64,000 bases of DNA from Piscirickettsiaceae bacterium CG07_land_8_20_14_0_80_44_28 (lineage in GTDB: Bacteria > Pseudomonadota > Gammaproteobacteria > Thiomicrospirales > Thiomicrospiraceae). Every line of letters begins with the position of its first letter. The stretch's first letter is position 1. Where the stretch lies: contig PEWX01000059.1 of assembly GCA_002779995.1 (NCBI GenBank), positions 31,169 through 95,168 of the forward strand, read 5' to 3'. Made by a program: the position numbers and the translations under genes. The notes beneath the pieces were generated by a model. The model was not told where the DNA came from. It worked only from the letters and a program-made list of their open reading frames with translations, and searched no databases. Shown in pieces: positions 2,128 through 64,000 of this stretch.

Positions 2128-3906
2128 ATGACAGACGAGAATGACATGGACTTGTTTAACACAACACAAATCGAAACCCTGGAATCGCTTCGACAACAGA
2201 GCACACCCCAACAGCAACTGTGGTTAAGTGGCTATTTCTACGGGCTTTCTCAAGCCAATACTGACGCTTCCAAAGCGACACCGTCACTTAACGACCAAGC
2301 GACTTTACCCGGTGTAACGATTTTGGTTGCAACCCAAACCGGTAATGCGCAACAGGTTGCAGAACAGCTAAAAACCACTTTAGAAGCTGAGTCAATTGCG
2401 GTGACCCTTAGCAATGTCTCTGATATTAAAGTGAAAGCACTGGCCAAAATTAGCCACTTAATTTTGGTTAGCAGCACCTATGGTGAAGGCGAGCCACCGG
2501 ATACCGCCGCAGCCTTCCATAAGTCCTTGTTTGCAGCAAAAGCCCCACCATTAAGAGAACTAAAATATGCCGTATTCGGACTGGGTGACAGCAGTTATGA
2601 TCAGTTTTGCCAAACCGCCATTGACTTTGATACCCGATTAGCCGAATTGGGAGCAACCCGTTTATTACCCCGCGTAGAAGCCGATGTGGAATTCCAATCA
2701 AGTGCAGATAAATGGGTGCTCGAAGTTAGAGATACCTTGCTAAAAGAAGCCGGTGCAAGTACAAGCGCAAAAGCCTCCATTGCCCATCAAAACACCCAGG
2801 CCTGGTCAGAAAAGAACCCTTATCCAGCCGAAGTGCTTGCCATTACCCCCTTAACCGATATCACCTCTAATAAAACGGTATTTCATTTAGAGCTTGATAT
2901 TGCGGATTCCGGCATTCAATATCAACCCGGGGATATTGCCGTAATTGCAACCCAAAACGATTCGGAACTGGTTGCCAGTGTGATTCGTCAAGCCGGTCTT
3001 GATGCCACTGAAACCGTCAACCTCAAGGGTGAAGAGGTCACACTTGAACAAGCCTTAACGCACAAACGCCAATTACGCTGTATCACCCCCAAACAATTGG
3101 ATGCTTATGCCGATAAACTCAATCAACCCAGTCTTGTTGCGAATACGCCTTTAGATAAAACCTCTCTAAATCAGAGCGATGTTTTGGATATATTCAACCT
3201 TGCCTCGCCCGCAGGCGTGTTGACAGCACAAGACTTAGTGGAGTGGTTACTGCCATTACGCCCTCGGCAATACTCAATCGCCTCCAGCCAAAATCTGCTC
3301 GAAGACGAACTACACCTGTGCATTGGCCAAGTGGTTTATGAATTAAATGGCCGCACCCGCTATGGCAGCTGTTCTAATGCTTTAGCAAACTTACAGGAAG
3401 GCGATCAGGTGTCATTGAGTATTAAGCCCAACCCGAATTTCAAGTTACCTGAAAAAGCCGATGCGCCGATTATGATGGTCGGCCCAGGCACAGGCATTGC
3501 ACCTTTTAGAGCCTTTATGCAAGAAAGAGAAGCCAACCAAGTTAAAGGCAAAAGCTGGTTATTTTTCGGTGAACAACATTTTAGTCGTGACTTCCTCTAT
3601 CAAGTAGAATGGCAAAAATGGGTCAAGACCGGCACGCTAGAAAAAATCAGTTTAGCCTTCTCCCGCGATCAAGCTGAAAAAATCTATGTGCAGCACCGAC
3701 TTTATCAAGCTGCCGCCGAAGTCTTTGCCTGGTTAGAAGCGGGAGCTTACTTTTATGTCTGTGGGGATCAAGCGAAAATGGCCAAAGATGTCCATGCCAC
3801 CCTATTACAAATCGTCGCTGAACAAGGGCAAATGGATGCCGAAGCGGCTGAAGACTATTTACAAAATTTGATACAACAAAAGCGCTATCAGCGCGATGTG
3901 TACTAA
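2128..3906 (+). CDS. cysJ: Sulfite reductase (NADPH) flavoprotein alpha subunit
   Basis: Flavodoxin domain plus FAD/NADPH domains (RPRQYSIASS, MMVGPGTGIAPFRAF), C-terminal YQRDVY; start could also be 2146. Confidence 0.95.
   Translation: MTDENDMDLFNTTQIETLESLRQQSTPQQQLWLSGYFYGLSQANTDASKATPSLNDQATLPGVTILVATQTGNAQQVAEQLKTTLEAESIAVTLSNVSDIKVKALAKISHLILVSSTYGEGEPPDTAAAFHKSLFAAKAPPLRELKYAVFGLGDSSYDQFCQTAIDFDTRLAELGATRLLPRVEADVEFQSSADKWVLEVRDTLLKEAGASTSAKASIAHQNTQAWSEKNPYPAEVLAITPLTDITSNKTVFHLELDIADSGIQYQPGDIAVIATQNDSELVASVIRQAGLDATETVNLKGEEVTLEQALTHKRQLRCITPKQLDAYADKLNQPSLVANTPLDKTSLNQSDVLDIFNLASPAGVLTAQDLVEWLLPLRPRQYSIASSQNLLEDELHLCIGQVVYELNGRTRYGSCSNALANLQEGDQVSLSIKPNPNFKLPEKADAPIMMVGPGTGIAPFRAFMQEREANQVKGKSWLFFGEQHFSRDFLYQVEWQKWVKTGTLEKISLAFSRDQAEKIYVQHRLYQAAAEVFAWLEAGAYFYVCGDQAKMAKDVHATLLQIVAEQGQMDAEAAEDYLQNLIQQKRYQRDVY
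2796..2805. repeat. CCAGGCCTGG palindrome (in cysJ)
   Basis: acacCCAGGCCTGGtcagaaaag. Confidence 0.9.
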
Positions 3907-7341: not shown

Positions 7342-8784
7342 ATGGATGCAAACAACGCTCTCATTGAACAAGATATTGAAGCTTATCTGAAGCAGCACGA
7401 AAACAAAGAATTATTAAGATTCATTACCTGTGGCAGTGTCGATGATGGTAAAAGCACGCTCATTGGTCGCTTATTGTTTGATACCAAAATGATTTTTGAA
7501 GATCAACTCAACAGCGTCACTCAAGACAGCAAAGTGCATGGAACCCAAGGCGCTGAAATTGACTTAGCGTTACTTGTAGATGGCTTGCAAGCTGAACGTG
7601 AGCAAGGCATTACCATTGATGTGGCCTACCGTTTTTTTGCCACCGATAAACGCAAATTCATTGTTGCAGACACCCCGGGACACCAACAATACACCCGCAA
7701 TATGGCCACGGGGGCTTCCACCGCCAATGCCGCCGTTATTTTAGTCGATGCGCGTCACGGCGTATTAGAACAAACGCGTCGCCACAGCTTTGTCACCCAT
7801 TTATTAGGGATTCGTCACCTGATTATTGCGGTGAATAAAATGGATTTAGTGGACTATGATGCGCAACGCTTTGACGAAATTCAACAGCAATATTGGCAAT
7901 TTGCCGAGCCGTTAGGGATTGAACAGGCACAATTTATTCCCATCAGCGCCTTAACGGGCGACAATATCGCCACGGAAAGTAGCAAGATGCCTTGGTACTC
8001 CGGCTCCACGTTACTGGATGCGTTGGAACAACTGCCACTGGATGAGCTGGATGATGCCGAAGACTTTCGCTTTGCGGTGCAATGGGTCAATCGACCCAAT
8101 GCCCAGTTTCGGGGTTTCAGCGGCACCATCAGTGCAGGGCGAATCAGCGTAGGAGATGCCATTACTGTTTATCCTTCAGGGCAAACCACACACATAGCCG
8201 ACATTATTGAACCCAGTATCCCGCCCAAATCCACCTCTATCGACACAGCAACCGTGCCCATGGCCGTGACCCTTGTCACCACCGATGAAGTTGATATCAG
8301 CCGAGGTGACTGGATGGTTAAATCGGCAGACACGACGCCGAGTGTCAGTCATGATGTCGAAGTTGATTTGGTTTGGTTGCATGACACCCCTGCTCAGATT
8401 GGGCAGCGCTATTTACTGAAAAACGCCACCCGTAAAACCCATGGCCGACTACAATCGATTGAGGCACTTATCGATGTCAATACGCTAGCAAAAAGTTCAG
8501 CTGATCAATTACAAGTGAATGAAATTGCCCAAGCACACATTCATTTTGACCAGGCCTGGCCATTTGATGCCTATGCGGATAATCGAACCACCGGGAGCTT
8601 TATTCTCATTGATCCGATTTCTCAAGCAACCGTTGGCGCCGCCATGGTAACACAAGTCTTAAGCGACACGCCGACGGTCACGCCTCACCGCCAATATACG
8701 CCGTTTGAACAAGATTTAAATGCCCTCATCCGTCAGCACTTCCCAGAATGGGAAACTCGTGCCATTGACGACTTACTTAAGTAA
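7342..8784 (+). CDS. cysN: Sulfate adenylyltransferase subunit 1 (GTPase), no CysC fusion
   Basis: GTPase motifs GSVDDGKSTLIGRLL, DTPGHQQYTRNM, NKMDLV; start refined to 7342. Confidence 0.95.
   Translation: MDANNALIEQDIEAYLKQHENKELLRFITCGSVDDGKSTLIGRLLFDTKMIFEDQLNSVTQDSKVHGTQGAEIDLALLVDGLQAEREQGITIDVAYRFFATDKRKFIVADTPGHQQYTRNMATGASTANAAVILVDARHGVLEQTRRHSFVTHLLGIRHLIIAVNKMDLVDYDAQRFDEIQQQYWQFAEPLGIEQAQFIPISALTGDNIATESSKMPWYSGSTLLDALEQLPLDELDDAEDFRFAVQWVNRPNAQFRGFSGTISAGRISVGDAITVYPSGQTTHIADIIEPSIPPKSTSIDTATVPMAVTLVTTDEVDISRGDWMVKSADTTPSVSHDVEVDLVWLHDTPAQIGQRYLLKNATRKTHGRLQSIEALIDVNTLAKSSADQLQVNEIAQAHIHFDQAWPFDAYADNRTTGSFILIDPISQATVGAAMVTQVLSDTPTVTPHRQYTPFEQDLNALIRQHFPEWETRAIDDLLK
8550..8559. 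repeat. CCAGGCCTGG palindrome (in cysN)
   Basis: ttttgaCCAGGCCTGGccattt. Confidence 0.9.
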
Positions 8785-8799
8785 CGGGGTCGCTCAATA

Positions 8800-10569
8800 A
8801 TGGAATGGCAAGGTTGGTTTTCGCTGTCGCTGACACTGGGTGTTTTGTTATTGCTGATTTTTACCAAAGCAAAACCCCATTTTGTGATGATGACGGCATT
8901 AACATTGCTCAGCGTAACGGGCATTTTGTCTATTGATGAATCTCTTGCCGGTTTTAGCAACCCGGGATTGATCACCGTGGCAGCCATGTTTGTATTGGCG
9001 GCTGGGGTTTACGCCTCAGGCGGCATTGACCTAATCGTAAACACCTTTTTGGGAAAACCGCAATCAGAACGTGGGGCATTGCTACGCATCTTTTTGCCGG
9101 TATCCTTATTAAGTGGCTTTTTAAACAATACCCCTGTGGTGGCCACCATGATCCCTGCGATTCATCTATGGGCACGTAAAATCAATATCGCCCCATCTAA
9201 GCTACTGATTCCATTAAGTTATACCGCTATATTAGGCGGCACTTTAACCTTAATCGGAACCAGTACCAATCTGGTTGTTAATGGCCAATATCAAACCTTA
9301 ACAGGAGAGCCTGGATTTTCCCTGTTTGATATTACCTTGGTGGGATTACCGGTGGTGATGGCAGGATTAGCCTTTATGTGGTGGTTCTTTCCCAAGTGGT
9401 TACCCAATCGAAACGATCAAGAAGTCTTTTCCAATTTTAGAGAATTTACATTAGAGATGGTGGTTTCTCGGCAAGGCCCTTTGGTTAACAAGTCAATTCA
9501 GGAAGCTGGCTTGCGTGATTTAAACAGTTTATATCTGGTTGAAGTCGAACGCGATGGCAGTATCATCACCGCCGTTTCTTCTGAAGAAAGACTGAAAGGC
9601 GGTGACCGACTGGTATTTGCAGGCGATACTCAAGCCATAACCGACCTACTTCGAATCAATGGCTTGGAAGCCCCGCTATCTGAAGCGGACAAAGGCATTC
9701 TCAATAAAGAAAGCGCTGAACGAAGAATTGTCGAAGCCGTGGTCTCGCCCAGTTGTGAAGCGGTGGGGTATGCCATTCGCAATGCCCATTTTCGTAACCG
9801 TTACGGTGCGGTTATTTTAGCCGTGGCGCGCAATGGAGAACGCATAAAAGGCAACTTGGGCAATATCAAACTCGAAGCGGGGGATACGCTGTTACTCGAA
9901 GCCAGACCCGCTTTTGTCACCCGACAACGTTATAACCGGGACTTTCTGCTCATTAACGAACACGACCAAGCGAAAGTTCGCCATGACCGTGCCTATGTTG
10001 CCTTAGCTATTTTAGCGATGGTCGTTCTGTCTGCCAGCTTTGGACTGCTTAGCATGTTACATGCCGCGCTGTTAGGCGCCGGTTTGATGATTGTTTCCGG
10101 GGCTTGCACCCTATCAGAAGCGGAGAAAGGGCTGGATTTACCGGTTATTATCACCATTGCTGCCGCCTTTGCTTTAGGCGCAGCCTTGAATAAAACCGGC
10201 GCTGCAAACTTTATCGCTTTGGGCATGATTGAGCTTAGTTTTGGCCAGGCCTGGTTATTATTAGTGCTGACCTACTTTACCGTGTCCATTTTAACGGAAA
10301 TGATTACCAACAATGCCGCCGCCGTTTTGATGTTACCCATTGTCTTACAAATGACTGAACAGTTGAGCTTAAATAGTGAGCCTTTTATTTTCGCAATCAT
10401 GATGGCCGCGTCTGCCAGCTTTGCCACGCCGCTCGGTTATCAAACCAACCTAATGGTGTATGGCCCAGGCGGTTATAAAGTTAGCGACTTTCTCAAAGTC
10501 GGCTTACCCATGAATCTGTTTATTGGCTTGGTCACGCTCAGTGTGTTGCTGATAGGCTGGACGCTTTAG
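8800..10569 (+). CDS. SLC13-family permease with TrkA-C/RCK_C domains, likely sulfate transporter
   Basis: Multiple TM segments, LSGFLNNTPVVATMIP, two RCK_C-like domains; last gene of the cys cluster. Confidence 0.85.
   Translation: MEWQGWFSLSLTLGVLLLLIFTKAKPHFVMMTALTLLSVTGILSIDESLAGFSNPGLITVAAMFVLAAGVYASGGIDLIVNTFLGKPQSERGALLRIFLPVSLLSGFLNNTPVVATMIPAIHLWARKINIAPSKLLIPLSYTAILGGTLTLIGTSTNLVVNGQYQTLTGEPGFSLFDITLVGLPVVMAGLAFMWWFFPKWLPNRNDQEVFSNFREFTLEMVVSRQGPLVNKSIQEAGLRDLNSLYLVEVERDGSIITAVSSEERLKGGDRLVFAGDTQAITDLLRINGLEAPLSEADKGILNKESAERRIVEAVVSPSCEAVGYAIRNAHFRNRYGAVILAVARNGERIKGNLGNIKLEAGDTLLLEARPAFVTRQRYNRDFLLINEHDQAKVRHDRAYVALAILAMVVLSASFGLLSMLHAALLGAGLMIVSGACTLSEAEKGLDLPVIITIAAAFALGAALNKTGAANFIALGMIELSFGQAWLLLVLTYFTVSILTEMITNNAAAVLMLPIVLQMTEQLSLNSEPFIFAIMMAASASFATPLGYQTNLMVYGPGGYKVSDFLKVGLPMNLFIGLVTLSVLLIGWTL
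10245..10254. repeat. CCAGGCCTGG palindrome (in SLC13 permease gene)
   Basis: agttttggCCAGGCCTGGttattatt. Confidence 0.9.
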
Positions 10570-20484: not shown

Positions 20485-20502
20485 TTAACTCGCCCAATTT
20501 AC

Positions 20503-20512
20503 CCAGGCCTGG
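20503..20512. repeat. CCAGGCCTGG palindrome (intergenic, convergent)
   Basis: aatttaccCAGGCCTGGtggttttt. Confidence 0.9.
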
Positions 20513-20525
20513 TGGTTTTTAGCCG

Positions 20526-23344: not shown

Positions 23345-24700
23345 TTATTTTCCAATACAAAAAGAGGTAAAAATACGTCCAAGCAGGTCGTCCGAACTAA
23401 ATTGTCCGGTAATTTCTGAAAGGGCTTGTTGTGCTTGCCTTAAATCCTCTGCCAACAACTCACCAGCAGCAAACTGCTGAAGTTGCGTTTGCCCGGTTTC
23501 AACAAAATCCAGTGCGCGTTGGAGTGCATCCAAATGACGTTTTCGCGCCATAAAAACGCCTTCAGCGGTTTGCTGATACCCCATGTCTTTTTTCAAATGG
23601 TCTTTGAGTAAATCCAGGCCGAAATGGTGTTTGGCAGACAGCCAAATCTCGGTTTTGTCGTCCAATTCAACCAGGCCTGGTGATTTTTCGATCAAATCAA
23701 CCTTATTGTGGATCAGCGTAAGGGGCAAATGACTGGGCAATTTGGCTAAAATGGCTTCATCTTCCGGATGGATACTTTCATTGGCTTGTACCACCACCAA
23801 CACTCGATCCGCTTCCTCAAGTGCTGACCAAGCTCTTGCTACACCGATTTGTTCTACCGCATCGGTCGTTTCTCGCAAGCCGGCGGTATCGAGAATATGT
23901 AACGGCAACCCATCGACCTGAATTTCTTCTTTCACGATATCACGCGTGGTGCCGGCAATATCAGTCACAATAGCAGATTCACGACCCGATAAGGCATTCA
24001 ACAAACTGGATTTCCCGGCATTGGGGCGACCCAAAATCACCACCGACATGCCTTCTCGCAATAAGACGCCTTGTTGTGCTGAAGCCAACACCTGATGCAA
24101 CTGCGTTAAAATCGACTGTAATTCGCCCGCGACCTTACCATCAGAGAGGAAATCAATTTCTTCTTCCGGAAAGTCAATCGCCGCTTCAACATATATGCGT
24201 AATTGAATCAGCTGTTCGAGCAAGGTATTCACCTCATTTGAAAACGCGCCTTGCAAAGAGCGCAATGCCGACTTTGCCGCCTGCTGTGAACTGGCATCGA
24301 TTAAATCCGCAATCGCCTCGGCTTGCGCCAGGTCTAATTTATCATTCAGAAATGCTTGCTTGGAAAACTCGCCCGGTTCGGCCAAGCGCGCACCGAGTTG
24401 CACAACGCGCTCTAATAACCACTGCAAAATAACAGGCCCGCCATGGCCTTGTAACTCCAACACATCTTCACCGGTAAAGGAATGGGGATTCGGGAAATAC
24501 AATGCGATCCCTTGATCGAGAACCTGACCTTCGGCTCCTAAAAAATTGCCATAATGCGCATAACGGGGCGCGGGAAGGCATCCCAACACCTGCTTAGCTA
24601 TGTCAGGCACTTTTGCACCTGATACGCGAACAATGCCCACCCCTCCGCGACCGAGGGGCGTGGCGATAGCGGCAATGGTTTCGGTTGTGCTTTTCAACAT
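23345..24700 (-). CDS. mnmE: tRNA uridine-5-carboxymethylaminomethyl modification GTPase
   Basis: [54 protein letters not shown]-terminal FCIGK. Confidence 0.97.
23670..23681. repeat. ACCAGGCCTGGT palindrome (in mnmE)
   Basis: ttcaACCAGGCCTGGTgatttttcg. Confidence 0.9.
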
Positions 24701-33866: not shown

Positions 33867-34706
33867 ATGACAGACTGTTATGCTGTGCTCGGCAACCCCA
33901 TTGCCCATTCTAAATCGCCGATGATCCATCGGCTATTTGCCGAACAAACGCATCAAGACCTCTGTTATGAAGCCATCTTGGTTGACCCGGAAGAAACCTC
34001 ATTTCAAGCAAAGGTCGCTCAGTTAAGAGCCCAAGGTTATAAAGGTCTGAATATTACCGTTCCCTTTAAATTGGATGCCTTTGAATTAGCCGATGAACTC
34101 AGTGAGCGGGCGCAACTGGCGCAAGCGGTCAATACCTTTCATTTTCAAGAAGGCAAAATTCTAGGTGACAATACCGATGGCATAGGTTTAATCAATGATA
34201 TTGAAATAAACGCCGGCTTTGCCATTCAAGGCAAAACCCTACTCATACTCGGTGCGGGCGGTGCGGTGCAAGGTATTCTTGACCCATTACTGCAAAAACA
34301 ACCAGGCCTGGTACATATTGCCAATCGAACCGCCAAAAGAGCGCAAGTGCTCAGTGAACGCTTTACTGCGGAGTGCAGCTTAACCAGCAGTGACTGGGCA
34401 TCCATCCCCCTGCGTGAACAGGGCTACGACCTGATTATCAATGGCACGGCTGCTAGTTTAGAAGGCAAGTTACTGCCCATTGACCCCCAATTGATTGGCG
34501 AAAATAGTTTGGTATATGACATGATGTATGGCGCTGAACCCACCTGTTTTTTAGACTGGGCCAAACAACACCAACCTCAGTGCCAAGTTCGAGACGGACT
34601 CGGCATGTTAGTGGGACAGGCCGCCGAAGCCTTTGGTATTTGGCGAGGCGTTGAACCCAAAATGCAACCCGTTATCGAAGCCATTCAAGCACAAATGCGC
34701 TCATAA
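33867..34706 (+). CDS. aroE: Shikimate dehydrogenase
   Basis: YAVLGNPIAHSKSPMIHRLFAEQT, GLNITVPFK, GDNTDGIGLINDIE, LILGAGGAVQGIL. Confidence 0.96.
   Translation: MTDCYAVLGNPIAHSKSPMIHRLFAEQTHQDLCYEAILVDPEETSFQAKVAQLRAQGYKGLNITVPFKLDAFELADELSERAQLAQAVNTFHFQEGKILGDNTDGIGLINDIEINAGFAIQGKTLLILGAGGAVQGILDPLLQKQPGLVHIANRTAKRAQVLSERFTAECSLTSSDWASIPLREQGYDLIINGTAASLEGKLLPIDPQLIGENSLVYDMMYGAEPTCFLDWAKQHQPQCQVRDGLGMLVGQAAEAFGIWRGVEPKMQPVIEAIQAQMRS
34301..34312. repeat. ACCAGGCCTGGT palindrome (in aroE)
   Basis: aaaacaACCAGGCCTGGTacatattg. Confidence 0.9.
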
Positions 34707-35320: not shown

Positions 35321-35350
35321 TGGATTCACCAATAAAAAAGGCTAAAATTT

Positions 35351-35364
35351 GACCAGGCCTGGTC
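35351..35364. repeat. GACCAGGCCTGGTC palindrome (intergenic)
   Basis: aaaatttGACCAGGCCTGGTCgaattt. Confidence 0.9.
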
Positions 35365-35477
35365 GAATTTACGTCCTAAAATGCAACGATCATTCACGAC
35401 ACCAACCATCATTAAGCCCTGCAAAATGAAACGCCCCCGATTATAGCAAAGTCGATGTTTTCAGCATAAAGGCACAC

Positions 35478-41238: not shown

Positions 41239-43716
41239 CTAGAAATCTTCCCACTCTGTTGCAGTTGCCGCAATCTCTTGGTTGGACTGCTTAGCAAGCG
41301 ATTTGGATTGATCGGAAGTTTTTGCCGGGGTCTCTGTCATTGTTACTGACACAGAAGCTTTTCGAGAGGCCTGTATTGGCATTGAAGCACTCGAAGCCGT
41401 TTTAAAGAAATCCATTTCCTGTTTTAGTTTGGCGGCTTGGCCATTTAAGTTCTCAGAAGAGGCCGAAGTTTCTTCGACCAGAGCGGCATTTTGTTGGGTC
41501 ACATTGTCAATTTGCACAATGGCATGATTCACCTGACCAATACCATCAGCCTGCTCTCGTGACACTTGGGCAATTTGTTGAACCATTTGATTCATATCCG
41601 CAATTGAGGCATGAATTTCTTTTAACACACCTCCTGAACGATTGGCTAATTCCGCTCCCTGACCGACCTTCTCACTACTCTGTTCAATAAGCCCTTTAAT
41701 ATCTTTGGCAGCTTCTGCCGACTTTTGAGCCAAATTACGCACTTCTCCGGCCACAACGGCAAATCCACGACCGTGATCACCTGCTCTTGCCGCCTCTACC
41801 GCAGCATTCAGCGCTAATAAATTGGTTTGAAAAGCGATGCCGTCAATTAAATTCACAATGTCTGAAATACGCTCGCTTGAAGCTTGAATTTCCTGCATTG
41901 CCACAATGGTTTCTTGCATTACCCGCTCGCCATTTTGCGCTTTGTTTTGTACTTCTTCCGCTAAATTTGCTGCTTGCTGAGCATTTTCAGTGGAATGAGT
42001 TAATTGGCTGGTCATTTCATCCATAGTTGAAGCAGTTTGTTCCAAAGCGGCAGCTTGCTCTTGTACTCGCTGACTTAAACTATTTGAGCCTTGAGCGACT
42101 TCTTGAGCTGCCAGACTGACTTCCTTAGAAACTTGCGACGCCACTTCAACCACTTCCGACATTTTGTTCAATGAATAATTGATGGCATTTTTTAAATCGT
42201 GCAACTGGCCTTTAAAGTGACCATCCGGTAACTTAACGGTTAAGTCGCCCGCAGCCTGGGCGGCCACCACATCACTGATTGCGACTATTGCATCGGCAAT
42301 ATGTTCTAAGGAGGTATTAATACCTTGCTTCATCACGCCTAAATCGCCCGGCGCCGTGGTTTCAATTCGACCATTGAAATCGCCTTCATTTACCCGTGCC
42401 ATCACCGAATTAATATCGGAAACAATGCCATTTAGTTGTGTCATGACATCAGCTGTTTTTTCAAGCATTTGTCGATAATGCCCCTCGGCAGAAATTTCAA
42501 CTTGCTCATCAAATCGACCTTCAGAAAGGGTATCTAAGGTATTGTTTAGTTGAAACATGACTTGCTTGACATTATCAATGGAGCCATTAATACCGGATTT
42601 TAACGTAGCCAAATCACCCTGATAATTGGCTTCGACTTTTTGATCAAACACCCCTCTTTCCAAGGCTTTGGTCGCTGAATTAATCTCAGCAAAGGCTTGT
42701 TGCAAGTTTTGTAAAAGCCCATTGAGCACTTTACCCACTTTGCCGATTTCATCCTTATCATCCAAGTCACTGCGGATTGAGAAATCATAATTCTGCTGTA
42801 AGTTTTCAAAAACATTGGTGAGTGTCTGTGCGCTGCGTGATATTTTTTGAACCACAAAAACCAACGCGATAACAACCAGGCCTGCTAGCAATAAATATAA
42901 AATCATCAATTGTTGATAAAAGGCCTCGTTTTTAGCGGCAATTGCCTCATTGAATGTCTGGCGAAACTTCTCCAATGCACCATCAACTTGATGAATTGAT
43001 TGACGCATCTCACCTCTAAATCCCTTTTCTTCGGTAAAGCCAATCACTTCATAGCCCTCAGCCATACCCTTAAAAGCCTTGCGATAAGCGTCCAATTCGG
43101 TTTGTAGTTGCATAGTCAGTTTAGCGGGCAATTCAGAGGTATACAGATGTTCACTAAAAATCGCATAATCATGGTTAAACTTTGTAAGATATTTCGGATC
43201 CATTCGCAACAAAAAGTCTTTTTCACGACGGCGTAACATCAGCGTATCGGCAAGCAATTGCGGCTTATTTAAGTTCTTTATGGTTTTCTCTATTTCATGT
43301 ACCCGTTTTCTGAGCTCACCCTGAAGACCGGATTTCTCATTTAAACCGACGGTTTCATAAGCAGCAACCAGTTTATTAAAACCGTCTTCATAGGCAGAAA
43401 AATAGCTATGAAGCTGACGAGAATCCATCAGGTCAAGCCCTAAGGCATCCATCTCTTTTTCTAGGGCTTTTATGGTGGTTTGGTAGGATTGATAGGTCTG
43501 TTCAAACTTAGCGCGATATTTTATGTCTTTACGTGCAAGAAAGTCTTTTTCATGCTTTCTTAATTCGAGCTCATAAAGCTTAACATCTTCTAAGATCGTT
43601 TTGGTATGCTCCAGCTCTTGTGCATGCTTGATTGAATAGTCGATTACGATGAGATTAGCGATCATTGAACACACGATCGCCACTGACAAAATATTTAATT
43701 TTGTTTTGATTAACAT
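41239..43716 (-). CDS. Methyl-accepting chemotaxis protein with helical-bundle sensor
   Basis: [46 protein letters not shown]-terminal TEWEDF. Confidence 0.95.
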
Positions 43717-48327: not shown

Positions 48328-48963
48328 TTAAGGTAATTGGTTGGCTAGCAAGCGGCTGATTTCCTCACGCCAGCTTTGCGAGAGCGCTTTAAGCGTAACG
48401 GCTTCGGCTAATAGCTGCCAATCATCCAAGCTTTGATGGTGAAACTTGGCTAAAAACAACCGTTGAATATCAGCACCGGATCCCGTTTTATGCACAGAAA
48501 CGCCCAGGCCTGGTGAAATTTCACCGCCTTTTAACACCCGACAATAAAAGCCCACCCGACCTGACAAACTGTAATGTTTCACAAAACGCTGATCGCCATT
48601 GATTTGTCCCAGCTTCCAACAAGGAGAGCGTGGTTGACTGACTTCTAATAACACACTGTCGATTTGCAACTGGTCACCGACCTGAACATCAGACTCGTCA
48701 AGCCCGGCCAGGGTTAAATTTTCACCCAAAAATCCAAATGGCTGTTCGGCAACGCCATGCAAAGCATAATTCGATTCAGGAATCACCATTACCGCTTTAT
48801 CCTCACCACCATGATTGATTTTATCGGCTTGTTGATCACCGACAAGACCTTGCTTGGCAACCTCGACAGGCAATTGACACGGCTGCTTGGCAATTGCCGA
48901 TGCCGTTTCCCCCCGCCAAGGATAAGCTTGAATGTTTCCCACATTCACTGAAACCACCCGCAT
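48328..48963 (-). CDS. MOSC domain protein (YiiM-like)
   Basis: GLVGDQQADKINHGGEDKAVMVIP..LGENLTLAGLDESDVQVGDQLQI..SQPRSPCWKL. Confidence 0.9.
   Translation of the reverse strand: MRVVSVNVGNIQAYPWRGETASAIAKQPCQLPVEVAKQGLVGDQQADKINHGGEDKAVMVIPESNYALHGVAEQPFGFLGENLTLAGLDESDVQVGDQLQIDSVLLEVSQPRSPCWKLGQINGDQRFVKHYSLSGRVGFYCRVLKGGEISPGLGVSVHKTGSGADIQRLFLAKFHHQSLDDWQLLAEAVTLKALSQSWREEISRLLANQLP
48504..48513. repeat. CCAGGCCTGG palindrome (in MOSC gene)
   Basis: aaacgcCCAGGCCTGGtgaaattt. Confidence 0.9.
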
Positions 48964-53255: not shown

Positions 53256-54320
53256 TTAAAACCCCACTCTCGGTCGGCGCTGCATCAGCAACCATAAAAA
53301 GAAGGGGCCGCCGATTGCCGACATCATAATACCGATGGGAATTTCTGACGGTGCCAGCAAACTACGCGCAACCATATCCGATCCAAGCACCAAAATCGCA
53401 CCAACCAAGGCACTTCCCGGCATCACCCACCGATGATCGGGACCGGTCAAAGATCTGACAATATGCGGTGCGACCAACCCCACAAACCCAATCACACCAC
53501 TGACTGAAACCGCTGCCCCCACTGCTAACGCGGTTAAGCCGATAACCGACCATTTAAGGTGTTTAACTCCATAGCCCATGTGTGCCGAGACGGCTTCACC
53601 CATTAAAAAGGCATTCAGCCCTCTTGCCGCAAATGGCAATCCGAACACGGCTAATAAAATGGGAAACGAAACCATTGAGATGGATGTCCAGTTCGCACCG
53701 GCCAAAGACCCTAAACTCCAAAAAGTGAGTGAGCGCAATTGCTCTGCCGTAGCAAAATAGCTTAATAAACCAATCGCGGCCCCGGTGATGGCATTCAATG
53801 CCACGCCGGCCAGTAACATCAGCCCAACATCGGTTTGACCGTTTCGGGTTGATAGTCGGTAAATAACACTGGTCACCGCCAGTCCGCCTAAAAAAGCCGC
53901 CAAGGGTAAGGCGGCAACCCCCAAATAACTCAGCCAACTGTGGAACCAGGTCGCCCCCAATACAATTATCGTCACCGCGCCCAAAGCGGCACCACTGGAA
54001 ACCCCCACCAATCCCGGATCTGCTAAGGGATTACGGAATAAACCTTGCATAGCGGCGCCGGAAATACCCAGGCCTGCCCCCACTAAAATGGCCAACACCA
54101 CACGAGGCAATCGAATTTCAGTCACAATCATCGCCGTTTGTGGAGGGTTAGATTGACCCACTAAACTGAAAAAAAGTTCGTTTAAGGCGATCGGAATCGC
54201 GCCCAAGGATAAAGAAAAACTCGCCAGTGCCAAAACGAGCAACCCCAGCCAAAACAGCAATATCGGTGGTTTGCCAAACGGGGTTAACCTGAATCGTTTC
54301 GATGATATAGACAATGACAT
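53256..54320 (-). CDS. hmuU: FecCD-family heme/iron ABC permease (HmuU-like)
   Basis: RLPRVVLAILVGAGLGISGAAMQGLFRNPLADPGLVGVSSGAALGAV, VSGVIGFVGLVAPHIVRSLTGPDHR. Confidence 0.88.
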   Translation of the reverse strand: MSLSISSKRFRLTPFGKPPILLFWLGLLVLALASFSLSLGAIPIALNELFFSLVGQSNPPQTAMIVTEIRLPRVVLAILVGAGLGISGAAMQGLFRNPLADPGLVGVSSGAALGAVTIIVLGATWFHSWLSYLGVAALPLAAFLGGLAVTSVIYRLSTRNGQTDVGLMLLAGVALNAITGAAIGLLSYFATAEQLRSLTFWSLGSLAGANWTSISMVSFPILLAVFGLPFAARGLNAFLMGEAVSAHMGYGVKHLKWSVIGLTALAVGAAVSVSGVIGFVGLVAPHIVRSLTGPDHRWVMPGSALVGAILVLGSDMVARSLLAPSEIPIGIMMSAIGGPFFLWLLMQRRPRVGF

Positions 54321-56795: not shown

Positions 56796-56968
56796 GGTTG
56801 AATAAAGGATCTCTTTTCATTGGCATCAGCTTTGTCGATGCTTTTATCAGGCGCTGAATTATAACAAAGTTCCCCCGACGATAGCGTCAGCGCAAACGCT
56901 AAATATAACAATAGCCCAATAATCACTTTTTATTAGTAATTTTTTTATGCCTATTATGTGTAAAAATC

Positions 56969-56980
56969 ACCAGGCCTGGT
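56969..56980. repeat. ACCAGGCCTGGT palindrome (intergenic)
   Basis: taaaaatcACCAGGCCTGGTcaaaattc. Confidence 0.9.
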
Positions 56981-57081
56981 CAAAATTCACCCCAAAATTG
57001 GCTTGTTACGCCTCTTTAAAAAATGTATAGTGAGTAACTAATTTCTTAATAAGAATATCCATCATTCACGAGAACTCCGCT

Positions 57082-58426: not shown

Positions 58427-59617
58427 ATGATTAATGACATCCTACGGCAAACCTCAAACTTTATCTTGGCTCGTTCTGTGCCAAGCTATCGACGCTTTTT
58501 ACTCGACAAAATGGATTTTTCTGATCGTCTAATCGGCATTCGCGGTGCAAGAGGCAGCGGCAAAACGACGATAATGTTGCAATACGCTCATTCCTCTCAA
58601 CTCTCGCCAACCAAAATACTCTATTTATCCTGTGACCACCCTGCGATGGCAGGAGAAGATTTATTGACATTGGCACAAACCTTTTACCAAGAAGGCGGCA
58701 AGTTACTCCTACTGGATGAGATTCACAAATCCAAAGATTTTGGCAGTGCGCTAAAAGCGATTTACGACGCCTTTGATTTACAAGTGATCTTTTCAGGCTC
58801 TTCCGCGCTACAACTCACTAAAATGAGTGCCGACCTTTCGCGACGTGCGGTCATGTTTCATTTACCCATTTTATCTTTACGAGAATATATCGAAATTGAA
58901 ACCGGCTTAAATTTACCTGTGATCCCTTTGCAATCCCTACTGCAATCTCACCAAGAAGTGGCTTTTGAAATCACTCAAAAAATTCGACCGATTGAATATT
59001 TTCGTCGCTACTGTGAAACAGGCGCTTACCCCTTTTACCAAGAATCATTGGAAAATTATCCGCTCAAATTATTAGAGGTTATTAATCACACCATTGATGT
59101 TGATTTAACCTCACTCTTTCATATTGATTCCAACAAACTCGATAAACTGAAAAAAATTTTATACATGGTCTGTTCTACACCGCCCGTTGAACTAAACAAG
59201 GCCAAAATCAGTAGCGCGGTTGGCACCTCTTGGCCAACCTTAGCCAAATATATTGAACTGATGCAATCTGCTGATTTACTGTACAGTTTAAGAGGCGGTT
59301 CAGGAATGCGTGCGGTCAATAAGCCCGATAAATTACTGCTCAATAACCCGAACCTATTTCAAGTATTGTGTGCCAACCCGAATACCGGCAGCCTGAGAGA
59401 AAGCTTTTTCGTCTCTCAACTCAGTTATCAACATCAGGTGCATTATCATGATCAAGGTGATTTTTTGGTGAATGATCAATACATTTTTGAAGTGAGTGGC
59501 GCCCAGAAAAAAACAACGCAAATCCAGCATCAAGACCAGGCCTTTTTAGCCTTAGACGACCTGGAAGTCGGTCATAAAAAGCGCATTCCACTGTGGCTTT
59601 TTGGGTTGCTCTACTAA
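58427..59617 (+). CDS. AAA family ATPase (AAA_14/DUF4143-like)
   Basis: Walker A GARGSGKTTIMLQ, Walker B LLLLDEIHKSKDF, sensor VIFSGSSAL. Confidence 0.85.
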   Translation: MINDILRQTSNFILARSVPSYRRFLLDKMDFSDRLIGIRGARGSGKTTIMLQYAHSSQLSPTKILYLSCDHPAMAGEDLLTLAQTFYQEGGKLLLLDEIHKSKDFGSALKAIYDAFDLQVIFSGSSALQLTKMSADLSRRAVMFHLPILSLREYIEIETGLNLPVIPLQSLLQSHQEVAFEITQKIRPIEYFRRYCETGAYPFYQESLENYPLKLLEVINHTIDVDLTSLFHIDSNKLDKLKKILYMVCSTPPVELNKAKISSAVGTSWPTLAKYIELMQSADLLYSLRGGSGMRAVNKPDKLLLNNPNLFQVLCANPNTGSLRESFFVSQLSYQHQVHYHDQGDFLVNDQYIFEVSGAQKKTTQIQHQDQAFLALDDLEVGHKKRIPLWLFGLLY

Positions 59618-60171: not shown

Positions 60172-62217
60172 TCAAATCGTTAACTCAGTCATGTTTTTTT
60201 CTTTAACAATATAAATATAAGCTTGTTTAGGTGAGCTGATTTCAGTTGGAAAGGCCAGTTCTAATTTTTTTGTTTTGACCATGTTCGATAGGTAACTTTT
60301 ACGAAGCAAGTCTGGGGTACGCTCTACTAATTCAGATAATACTGAAATTGAAACATATTGGTTTTTGCATAAGTTCAATAAAACGGCTTCCATCACATCA
60401 CTTGAGACCCGTTTTTTGGTTCTAGGTTCTTTTGCTATTTCATGGAGTTTTATAAGCGTCGGTTCTGTTAAAAGTGTTAGTTCATCAATAAACGGAAAAC
60501 GATGATATTCAGAGGGTGAAATCAATCGACCAAATTCATCTCTATTTTCTGAGCCTAGGGTATTAGAGTTTGAACCTAGGGTATTTGAACTTAAGCCTAG
60601 GGTATTAGAGTTTGAACCTAGGGTATTTGAACTTAAGCCTAGGGTATTAGAGTTTGAACCTAGGGTATTTGATTCATTAAAAACATCGTCAGCTTTGGGA
60701 ATCATACTATCTAAAGTTGTTAGGTGATAAACGCTTCCACGGCTATGACCCGTTTGTTTTAACCAACCTTTTTCGACCAGCATATTTAATGTTTTACTCA
60801 CATCTGCCGAGTGTTCCGTTGATAGTGAGCATAAGCGTTCATGGGTGACGGTTTTTTCATTAAAAGCGATACCTAAAGCTAATTGTGCCAAGTTACTAAC
60901 TTGGCCAAACTCTGTTCCAAAATGTCTTGCTAATAAGCTCATGCTTCCTTGCGGTAAAAGGTCTGTCATCCAAAGTTTTAACAAGGTCTGTTCATTAGGT
61001 TTGATAACCTCCTCAAGCATCGGCTTTTTCCAATGGTAAGCTTTCCAGCTATCAAATATTTTTGGTAATCCAGAGCCAGACTGCTCACCAATTCCAACAA
61101 AACGAAACATTTTATGAATTAAACGATTACGGCAGTCTGCTTCGCCACCATGAATTGCAACACTGACAGGAACTCTCATTAACCCTGGGTTTCTAAAACC
61201 AAACATATCAGGTCTCTTAACCACTAAAACAGAAGCACGGCCAGTATAGTCGGCATGCACTAAAACATTACACAATGCTTCACGCACAGCAATATGTAGA
61301 GGCGTATCCTCTTTTCGGATACCACCCTCTAATTGAAAAGGAACTTTAATCTCCGTTGTGAGTTTGCGATAAACAATATGAAAAAAATCAAACAAATTCC
61401 CAGACCAAGTGCCATCTAAAGTAACTCGATCAGACCAACGGTTTTCAGTTTTGGCTTGTGGGCGTTCCTGATAGTCCAATTGATAATTAGGAAGAATATC
61501 TTGAATCGTATGGTCTTCTGCAAACATCAACAAGCCTGCAATCGTTAAGCCTGCGATATCTTTTTCGCGATCTCGTCGCCAAGCGCCAATGCGCTCAAGA
61601 AAGGCCAAATCATCTAATTTATTAAAAGGGTGCGTTGGTTGGCGCACGGCAAATGTCTGGCGATAATCTTGCAAAGTTTTTTCATGCAAATCGGTTAAAC
61701 CATAGCCAATTAAGATTTCATTATCACGACTGTCATTCATCTGCTCCGCTAAAGCGCGCTTTACCTCTTCATCTGACATTTTTTGGTCAGACTCATTTAA
61801 GCGACGATAACTATTTTTAATAGGCGTTTGTTTTAAATAAACAGGCCTATCTTTTCGAGTTGCCTCAGGAATAATGACTTTTAAAAATTGAATGCATTCA
61901 ATAGAGATTGTTTCAATGTGTTCATCTTTTAATAAGTTGGCACTCACAATTTGTGGGTTATTTGCACCATTCACTAATTGAGCCTTAACGGTATCAATGT
62001 TCTCAAGACCAACCAAGCTGAACTGACCTTTTTTCTCTTGAATACCCAGTAAAACAATACCGCCATAAGTATTGGCCATGGCAGAGTAGGTTTCCCAAAA
62101 ATCATTGGGCAGGTTGCCTTTACCATCCTTGCCTGTGGCTAATTTGCACTCTAAACTGCAGCTCTCTTTTAAAAGTTTGATATCTTCCAGCGTATTTAAT
62201 TCAATCTCATTCGCCAT
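60172..62217 (-). CDS. AlbA_2-type ATP-binding protein (COG2865-like) with C-terminal winged-helix region and 7-aa tandem repeats
   Basis: ESCSLECKLATGKDGKGNLPNDFWETYSAMANTYGGIVLLGI, AVREALCNVLVHADYTG, GIGEQSGSGLPKIFDSW; start refined to 62217. Confidence 0.88.
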   Translation of the reverse strand: MANEIELNTLEDIKLLKESCSLECKLATGKDGKGNLPNDFWETYSAMANTYGGIVLLGIQEKKGQFSLVGLENIDTVKAQLVNGANNPQIVSANLLKDEHIETISIECIQFLKVIIPEATRKDRPVYLKQTPIKNSYRRLNESDQKMSDEEVKRALAEQMNDSRDNEILIGYGLTDLHEKTLQDYRQTFAVRQPTHPFNKLDDLAFLERIGAWRRDREKDIAGLTIAGLLMFAEDHTIQDILPNYQLDYQERPQAKTENRWSDRVTLDGTWSGNLFDFFHIVYRKLTTEIKVPFQLEGGIRKEDTPLHIAVREALCNVLVHADYTGRASVLVVKRPDMFGFRNPGLMRVPVSVAIHGGEADCRNRLIHKMFRFVGIGEQSGSGLPKIFDSWKAYHWKKPMLEEVIKPNEQTLLKLWMTDLLPQGSMSLLARHFGTEFGQVSNLAQLALGIAFNEKTVTHERLCSLSTEHSADVSKTLNMLVEKGWLKQTGHSRGSVYHLTTLDSMIPKADDVFNESNTLGSNSNTLGLSSNTLGSNSNTLGLSSNTLGSNSNTLGSENRDEFGRLISPSEYHRFPFIDELTLLTEPTLIKLHEIAKEPRTKKRVSSDVMEAVLLNLCKNQYVSISVLSELVERTPDLLRKSYLSNMVKTKKLELAFPTEISSPKQAYIYIVKEKNMTELTI
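60554..60672. repeat. In-frame minisatellite: alternating 21-bp units, about 5.9 copies
   Basis: cctagggtattagagtttgaa / cctagggtatttgaacttaag, encoding SNTLGSN/SNTLGLS. Confidence 0.97.
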
Positions 62218-64000
62218 AGTTATTACCTGAAATTTGCCAAATTGCATCTATTTCCTTCATGAATCTATCGGTTTCTACTAGGGCGACGATGATTTTTTGG
62301 TAGTGCATAATGTCGTCAAAACTGAGTTCACGGTCTTGGCGGTCTTTTAGCCATTTTTGCGCGGGTTGGTAGCCGCCTATGTAGAACTCCCAGGCTAACA
62401 ACGGTACTTGGTCAAAATATTGGTTATCGTTAATCCACACCTTACCGTGCGTGTCATCAATCGCTTCATACCCTGGGCTGGTTTTGCTGATTTTACGGCT
62501 CACCACATTACTGCCTGCAACGGGATAAGGGGTAATGGCTTGGTCTAAGGCGGGCGATTCCATTAAATGCAATTGGCGAATTTGCCCGCCCAAGCTCACC
62601 AATGGCCAAAAGGTCTCGGGCGTTGGATAAGGCACGCGCGGAAAGTCGGTTTTTAAAAATTCTTTGTAGGTTTCACGATAGCTTGGGCTGTGCAACACCG
62701 CATAAATATAATCCAAAATGTCAATTGGGCAAAACTCGGTTTGTGGCACAAAAGTCACCGAAAAATCACCAGGCCTGGTGGTTTTTTCGGCCGAAAAAGG
62801 CAAATTTAAGGCTTTTTCAAAAGCTTGGATTTCTTCAGGATTGAGATTAGGCGTGCGTTCGCTTCCGTCTTCTGGGTAGAGGTAGAGTGGGAACACAGAA
62901 CCAATTTCGCTTGTTTTATTTGAAACTAAACAAGATTCAGAAATAGTTTCACTTACAAATACATGTTGGTTTTGTTCAAAAGCCTTTACTTGTCTGCAAA
63001 TATTAAGACCTAAATTAGAACCTTTTAATATATGTTGCATAACATCTAACCTACTACGTTCAATAAAGGCGCTATCAAAATAAATATGGCGTTTATCGAA
63101 TGGACGATAATTAATTTCTTTAATGTACATCTTGTCAAAAGCGGTTTTATTTTGGACTTCAGCAATTCTCCAAGATTTGTTTTCTCGAATATTGAGTTTA
63201 TTTTTTGCTGCTTCAGGTGATAATTCAAAAAAGGTTTTAATTCGTTCTACTAATCTAAATTTATCATCATCAATGACTAAGGAATCGCGAGAAGTGACAA
63301 TGCCAACATTATTGACTTTAAACAAAGATTGAATTGCAAGGCCTTTGTCATAATCAGTTTGCAGTTCAAAATCTTTAGGCACCATAAAGTACATAGGTGC
63401 AATATTTGGAATCGCTTGATAGGGCACATTCTTAAAAGCGGTGTTTTCTAAAAAAGCGTATTTGTCTTTGCGTTTGCCATATAAATCTAAGTGATAAACC
63501 TGCCCTAAATCACCAGGCCTGGTTATTTTTGAGCCGTTTTTCACCAAAATATTAATCGAAACGCCTTGTTCTATATCAAAGATGTTTTCGTCTTTTGAAC
63601 CATCTGGGCAGGTTTCTTTCTTTTTGGCATTGCCATGTAAGTCAATGGTGTAAATTTCGTCATAGGTTTTGAGCAAATTCCAACGCATTCCGCGAAAAGT
63701 GGGGTTGTCTAAAAAACCATGTGGATTAATAAACGCTAAAACCCCTTCGCCATTTTGTTCAATAAAATGCTGACCAAAACGCATAAACTTAACGTAATCA
63801 TCATTAATCCATTTGGGGTTTCTTTCTTGTAATTTTTGTTTGCCACCCGGTTCTTTTTTGTAGTCGTCCATTAACGACATAATCCAGTCGCCTTTATTGG
63901 CACTTTCGCCAGAATAAGGCGGATTGCCCATTACCACCATGACGGGCGTGTCTTTTTTAACGGTATTGGCTTCTTTGGCCTCGTTACTGAGCCATTGCGA
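62207..64000 (-). CDS. Type ISP-like restriction-modification enzyme (N6 adenine MTase + C-terminal specificity region), 5' end outside window
   Basis: MTase motif IV VMGNPPYSG; C-terminal ILDYIYAVLHSPSYRETYKEFLKTDFPRVPYP; frame open to window edge (SQWLSNEAKEANTVKKDTPVMVV). Confidence 0.85.
   Translation of the reverse strand, partial: SQWLSNEAKEANTVKKDTPVMVVMGNPPYSGESANKGDWIMSLMDDYKKEPGGKQKLQERNPKWINDDYVKFMRFGQHFIEQNGEGVLAFINPHGFLDNPTFRGMRWNLLKTYDEIYTIDLHGNAKKKETCPDGSKDENIFDIEQGVSINILVKNGSKITRPGDLGQVYHLDLYGKRKDKYAFLENTAFKNVPYQAIPNIAPMYFMVPKDFELQTDYDKGLAIQSLFKVNNVGIVTSRDSLVIDDDKFRLVERIKTFFELSPEAAKNKLNIRENKSWRIAEVQNKTAFDKMYIKEINYRPFDKRHIYFDSAFIERSRLDVMQHILKGSNLGLNICRQVKAFEQNQHVFVSETISESCLVSNKTSEIGSVFPLYLYPEDGSERTPNLNPEEIQAFEKALNLPFSAEKTTRPGDFSVTFVPQTEFCPIDILDYIYAVLHSPSYRETYKEFLKTDFPRVPYPTPETFWPLVSLGGQIRQLHLMESPALDQAITPYPVAGSNVVSRKISKTSPGYEAIDDTHGKVWINDNQYFDQVPLLAWEFYIGGYQPAQKWLKDRQDRELSFDDIMHYQKIIVALVETDRFMKEIDAIWQISGNNYGE
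62768..62779. repeat. ACCAGGCCTGGT palindrome (in type ISP RM gene)
   Basis: gaaaaatcACCAGGCCTGGTggtttttt. Confidence 0.9.
63512..63523. repeat. ACCAGGCCTGGT palindrome (in type ISP RM gene)
   Basis: ctaaatcACCAGGCCTGGTtatttttg. Confidence 0.9.

Follow-up and report, generated by a model that had tools for sequence, protein, structure and literature searches.

A palindromic word in Thiomicrospiraceae genomes as a candidate DNA-uptake-sequence-like tag

Two copies of a genome-wide word in a type ISP gene

The window analysed here is the whole stretch of 64,000 nucleotides taken from the genome (G000, the host) of a sulfur-oxidising bacterium that appears to belong to Thiomicrospiraceae in GTDB terms, genus Hydrogenovibrio. 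At its far end lies a type ISP restriction-modification gene (Table 1), the reading frame of which is still open where the window stops; contig C12 ends at this same position, so that the gene is truncated. The adjoining gene encodes Schlafen/AlbA_2 and HATPase_c_4 domains and holds an in-frame array of 21-bp/42-bp units (2.9 exact copies of 42 bp) encoding SNTLG-containing heptads, which is likely to be length-variable. An ATPase-like protein matching the PADLOC candidate system PDC-S01 is encoded near the Schlafen-like and type ISP genes, and it is possible that the three form a defence cluster.

Table 1. Features of the window, with positions counted from its first nucleotide
Feature	Position	Strand	Remarks
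Word copy	2788..2813 (core CCAGGCCTGG 2796-2805)	.	G006 orthologue has one substitution, CCAGGTCTGG
Word copy	8542..8567 (core 8550-8559)	.	Kept in G006
Word copy	10237..10262 (core 10245-10254)	.	Kept in G006
Word copy	20495..20520 (core 20503-20512)	.	
Word copy	23663..23688 (core 23671-23680)	.	Kept in G006
Word copy	34294..34319 (core 34302-34311)	.	Kept in G006
Word copy	35345..35370 (core 35353-35362)	.	
Near-miss copy ACCAGGCCTGCT	42875..42886	.	
Word copy	48496..48521 (core 48504-48513)	.	Kept in G006
Near-miss copy around CAGGCCTG (CCCAGGCCTGCC)	54067..54078	.	
Intergenic word copy	56962..56987 (core 56970-56979)	.	Kept in G006
ATPase-like protein, match to PDC-S01	58427-59617		
Schlafen/AlbA_2 + HATPase_c_4 gene	60172-62247		Adjoins type ISP gene
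21-bp/42-bp unit array	60550-60672		Within the Schlafen/AlbA_2 gene
Type ISP restriction-modification gene, C-terminal 597 aa	62207..64000	-	Type_ISP_C PF18135, Eco57I PF07669 (Pfam)
Type ISP site 2, 26-bp footprint	62761..62786 (core CCAGGCCTGG 62769-62778)	.	Encodes TRPGD
Type ISP site 1, 26-bp footprint	63505..63530 (core CCAGGCCTGG 63513-63522)	.	Encodes TRPGD

The type ISP frame carries the palindrome CCAGGCCTGG twice. The original prediction is confirmed on this point: both copies are exact, lie 248 codons apart with their A/T flanks oriented alike, and are each read ACC AGG CCT GGT GAT, giving T-R-P-G-D. The nearest named homologues of the gene include records from Thiotrichales and from Thiomicrorhabdus/Thiomicrospira, in agreement with the genus assigned to the host; homologues also occur in taxa that do not have the word. 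Both words are present in L005 (96% DNA identity), only the first in a Thiomicrospira MAG (L025), and neither in Thiomicrorhabdus marina (L006) or Marinospirillum (L007). When these homologues are aligned, TRPGD is missing at both places where the word is missing, and no word-free homologue was found with the same residues at both sites. TRPGD is thus a by-product of the DNA word.

The pair is not special in itself, because at a density of one copy per 5.6 kb the occurrence of two CCAGGCCTGG in one 1.8-kb gene has a Poisson p of 0.041. The meaningful unit is the genome-wide word rather than the type ISP pair, and both copies are ordinary members of a genome-wide tag population. Exact CCAGGCCTGG occurs 404 times in the 2.28-Mb host genome, where about one copy is expected and the reversed control gives 0, and 11 times in the window. 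Allowing up to one mismatch, the window contains 12 matches to ACCAGGCCTGGT, where shuffles predict 0.10. Beyond such whole-genome word counts, the host statistics were taken from about 308 kb of its own sampled sequence, window included, which holds 54 copies of CCAGGCCTGG against a Markov expectation of 0.13. The suggestion that the two palindromes might be linked to recognition by the restriction-modification enzyme found no support, the word being spread over the whole genome and the family and not evidently tied to the type ISP gene.

Footprint, dialects and placement of the word

Copies of the word have just about 26 bp in common and are not part of a larger element. The unit in the host is a footprint of the form A-tract–Y–NN–CCAGGCCTGG–NN–R–T-tract, with the logo AAAAaYnnCCAGGCCTGGnnRtTTTT when the 54 copies from 308 kb are aligned. 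Positions -8 to -4 are A-rich, -3 is a pyrimidine (1% purine) and -2 and -1 are loose, while the right side mirrors this arrangement and ends in a T-tract. No significant complementary covariation of the flanks was detected at any of ten positions in G000, so that the symmetry of the footprint looks like protein-DNA recognition rather than a hairpin.

Conservation can be followed in the relative G006, which has the word at full density and a contig syntenic with that of the host at 79.5% identity; the alignment to the window contig stops short of both type ISP sites. The core is exact at 9 of 12 fully aligned sites, compared with 6.5% of GC-matched 10-mers (p=4e-9), and homologous sites are gap-free in the 10-bp core, differing by 0-2 substitutions. 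Core, A-tract and T-tract are kept in the conservation profile and the three-base spacers change freely. The base pair next to the core differs by lineage, homologous sites included, being mixed in G000 and A/T in G006 and G034, as though all tags of a genome drifted together.

Of 63 genomes of the family, about half have the core CAGGCCTG in hundreds of copies, up to 1,173, and the others have it at background level. Its abundance is patchy, with word-rich and word-poor genomes mixed inside genera g1 and g3. The bases flanking the core vary among other genera: G034 and G006 have A/T at ±1, G022 has CAGGCCTGTT, and G016 has G/C at ±1 and A/T at ±2 of the octamer. The largest departure is seen in H. 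marinus and two relatives (G001, G003 and G011), which group as a single clade (100/100) when ComEC is used for the tree. These genomes lack the palindrome and are the only ones with an asymmetric dialect, CCAGGYKGGG (AAAATCTGCCAGGYTGGGK), present in 332-405 copies. The logos (AAAATCTRCCAGGTTGGGG in G001, AAAATCTGCCAGGCTGGGK in G003) describe a non-palindromic motif of about 19 bp, in which the left half is that of the palindrome, a new right half (TTGGGG/CTGGGK) has replaced the old one and the T-tract has gone. The switch can be seen without a gap at one homologous site, with CCAGGCCTGG in G000 (...CAGCCAGGCCTGGCCGTTTTT) and CCAGGCTGGG in G003 (...CTGCCAGGCTGGGTCTTTTTT). The comEC region of G003 retains the TT form seen in G001 and G011. 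The word has lineage dialects that follow phylogeny around a common inner core, a pattern also described for uptake sequences in Neisseriaceae (DUS) and Pasteurellaceae (USS). No alternative dialect was found in samples of G007, G008, G017, G018, G013 and G019, which are small (14-80 kb) and make this weak evidence. At the start of the G003 chromosome record (L114:117-8400), a 318-bp unit is repeated in tandem about 27 times and probably belongs to a gene for a giant repeat protein.

A crude gene call places 33 of 51 host copies (~65%) within genes and 18 outside. Relative to its extent, non-coding DNA is enriched for the word 3.7-fold in G000 and 2.3- to 8.6-fold over nine genomes, and most copies in G003, G011 and G034 are outside genes. 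Only one of 15 classified intergenic copies in G000 sits between divergent genes, the others being between convergent or tandem genes.

The uptake-tag reading, its machinery and its rivals

What reads the word? We lean towards a new family of DNA-uptake-sequence-like self tags, because the copy number, the AT-tract footprint, the dialects, the placement and the lack of strand skew together make up the pattern described for Neisseriaceae and Pasteurellaceae. The competence/type IV filament machinery would include a DNA receptor at the cell surface that recognises some 19-26 bp, reading the A-tract, the pyrimidine at -3, the CCAGG half and then the second half. Tagged DNA would be preferentially taken up and then recombined. 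Over time, biased import would fix tags at permissive places, such as intergenic 3' regions and variable protein loops, and keep them at homologous sites, and a change of receptor specificity would shift all copies in concert. The reader would accordingly be an uptake receptor, with transformation presumably driving the enrichment.

The Neisseriaceae DUS, whose dialects track phylogeny, are similar in kind: they too occur in hundreds of copies, genic as well as intergenic and with no strand bias, and all dialects have a core in common (CAGG in the present word) (PMC3630211). Unlike DUS, the present word is palindromic in most members, has a lower density and comes with no detected ComP homologue. 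With the Pasteurellaceae USS it has in common a core with conserved flanking AT tracts, which contribute to USS uptake (PMC7811141), and a share of about 65% in ORFs, the value in H. influenzae being 65% (PMC1939737). The USS is asymmetric and unrelated in sequence, whereas the AT tracts of the present word are symmetric on both sides of the core. Some observations count against an uptake tag: no published USS or DUS is palindromic (PMC1939737), some genera (G016) have weak A-tracts or none beside the core, and sites with one mismatch are just mildly enriched (12 against 4.6 expected).

Regarding the machinery, ComEC was found in every family genome searched. All 30 word-rich genomes with a completeness of at least 90% have ComEA; 4 of 21 word-poor genomes are without it, three of these belonging to a single genus (Fisher p=0.024, not corrected for phylogeny). 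ComEC and ComEA do not predict the word, because many word-poor genomes have them too. The g6 genomes and G056 have a further helix-hairpin-helix match of the ComEA type, within an ORF of ~700-790 aa. Two receptor candidates were rejected: ComP, the known DUS receptor family (PF16732), had no match over the cut-off in the genomes searched, and FimT/GspH (PF12019) was confined to three word-poor genomes, with none in word-rich ones. The predicted Pasteurellaceae USS receptor family is the FimT-like PpdA/ComN (PMC12616744). Since receptors differ between DUS and USS, the missing ComP- or FimT-like receptor is not decisive.

A secretin and a pilus-type ATPase are present. The PilQ model TIGR02515 gave nothing over its cut-off in any genome searched and did not discriminate. 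From ORF length and neighbouring ATPases, the secretin matches of ~700 aa look like T2SS GspD and those of ~570 aa like MshL; in relatives the ~700-aa form stands beside a ~487-aa GspE-like ATPase, probably a T2SS. Several word-rich genomes (G001, G003, G011, G004, G023, G027 and G083) are without the ~700-aa secretin that most of their relatives have. True PilT is missing in the word-rich G002, G010, G016, G023 and G083; in Haemophilus, DNA is taken up by a pilus without PilT (PMC6668835). No report of transformation or uptake for any family member was found in the literature searched. Because ComP was not found, PilT has gaps and many word-poor genomes have the same competence genes, an uptake tag is preferred with reserve, and a chromosomal binding site is kept as a less likely reading.

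It is conceivable, if rather unlikely, that the word is instead bound by a cytoplasmic, probably dimeric, chromosome protein involved in nucleoid organisation, segregation, repair or recombination, its sites being kept by selection for a function inside the cell. Dimeric proteins classically bind palindromes flanked by symmetric A/T tracts, the word is retained at homologous loci and occurs in genomes without PilT, and the spacing of sites in G009 is non-random, the gaps between them being non-exponential (KS p=0.009), a feature that agrees with an uptake tag as well. The asymmetric dialect is hard to reconcile with a homodimer, however, as its right half is replaced and its T-tract gone while the left half is kept. 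The presence of the word is also patchy within genera, and its 400-1,173 copies are far above the numbers of parS/matS-type sites. Nor is there a replication-strand skew of the Chi/KOPS kind. Asymmetric sites are balanced over both strands (144/188, 170/203 and 196/209 in the three genomes), and the first part of the chromosome has no excess of + sites in G003 (p=0.27) or G011 (p=0.28; binomial, with the complete chromosome records assumed to start near the origin). A polar motif of this type was rejected, the word being palindromic in most genomes and its asymmetric dialect, with the same assumption on origin position, being free of skew.

An uptake receptor and a chromosomal binding protein meet in a more specific scheme, which is put forward as tentative. 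The word would be a palindromic family-wide tag that one clade switched to an asymmetric form by a half-site swap, and its reader would be either a new two-sided uptake receptor, working in both directions, or a new chromosome-wide binding system that does not serve uptake.

Much less probable is a word of the HIP type. For cyanobacterial HIP1 and alternate HIPs, generation by a cognate DNA methyltransferase together with biased mismatch repair has been proposed (PMC4390886). The likeness lies in a GC-rich palindromic octamer/decamer of very high copy that switches between lineages, other words being used in some of them (PMC4390886). Unlike HIPs, the present word has a 26-bp footprint reaching A/T tracts at -8 to -4 and +4 to +8, and the dialect of G001, G003 and G011 is non-palindromic over ~19 bp. 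Many carriers are moreover without a C5 methyltransferase: none of the nine g6 genomes, which have 840-1,128 copies, contains PF00145, and neither do G004, G005, G006, G010, G014, G022 and G079. The C5 version of the model fails because of these word-rich genomes without PF00145 and the motif of 19-26 bp with its asymmetric dialect; the methyltransferase test covered the C5 class.

Bidirectional intrinsic terminators, with a GC palindrome followed by a T-run, resemble the word in shape, and the word is enriched in non-coding DNA, where most copies are flanked by convergent or tandem genes. As a general explanation this is very improbable, given that ~65% of the host copies are intragenic, that the flanks have no significant compensatory covariation at the ten positions tested in G000, and that the asymmetric dialect lacks any inverted repeat. 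A secondary use of the word at gene ends, as noted for DUS, is possible.

The weakest reading, which we consider scarcely credible, is that of the original prediction, in which a short mobile palindromic element of the Rickettsia type had inserted in frame. Like Rickettsia palindromic elements, the word occurs in-frame within ORFs, and the loops that hold it in the type ISP protein are shorter in several homologues; unlike those elements, which are ~100 bp or more, its copies are alike over ~26 bp only, change by substitution and leave no insertion footprint, with near-words at the same loci differing by 1-2 substitutions and cores free of indels where homologous sites were compared (G000-G006 and G000-G003). 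Word-free homologues are not shorter by exactly the element. Type ISP site 1 is two residues longer than in most homologues and as long as in L007, which is without the word, so substitutions suffice there; at site 2 the length of the loop differs greatly among homologues. Loop-length variation at site 2, and at site 1 in most homologues, is neutral on insertion versus substitution. As far as the alignments indicate, the two sites would fit a build-up of tags by substitution in permissive loops and do not demand an inserted element.

Implications for the family

No paper describing the word in these genera was found in the open full-text literature searched, and matches to its sequence were to unrelated primer or probe sequences only. 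To our knowledge, Neisseriaceae and Pasteurellaceae are the only families with established uptake sequences, and we know of no earlier palindromic tag resembling an uptake sequence. The reason such sequences exist is debated, with molecular drive, mate recognition and a cellular function as proposals.

Should the word not serve uptake, it would represent a so far undescribed binding system that spans the chromosome, with as many as 1,173 sites in one genome. If its role as an uptake tag is confirmed, Thiomicrospiraceae would become the third family with uptake sequences and the first with a palindromic one. This would provide an independent natural experiment in a free-living, chemolithoautotrophic family of sulfidic and hydrothermal habitats, in which dialects are many, a single genus includes the switch from a palindromic to an asymmetric form, and word-rich species have close word-poor relatives. 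The receptor could then be found by comparing word-rich with word-poor genomes, and the drive model would become testable.
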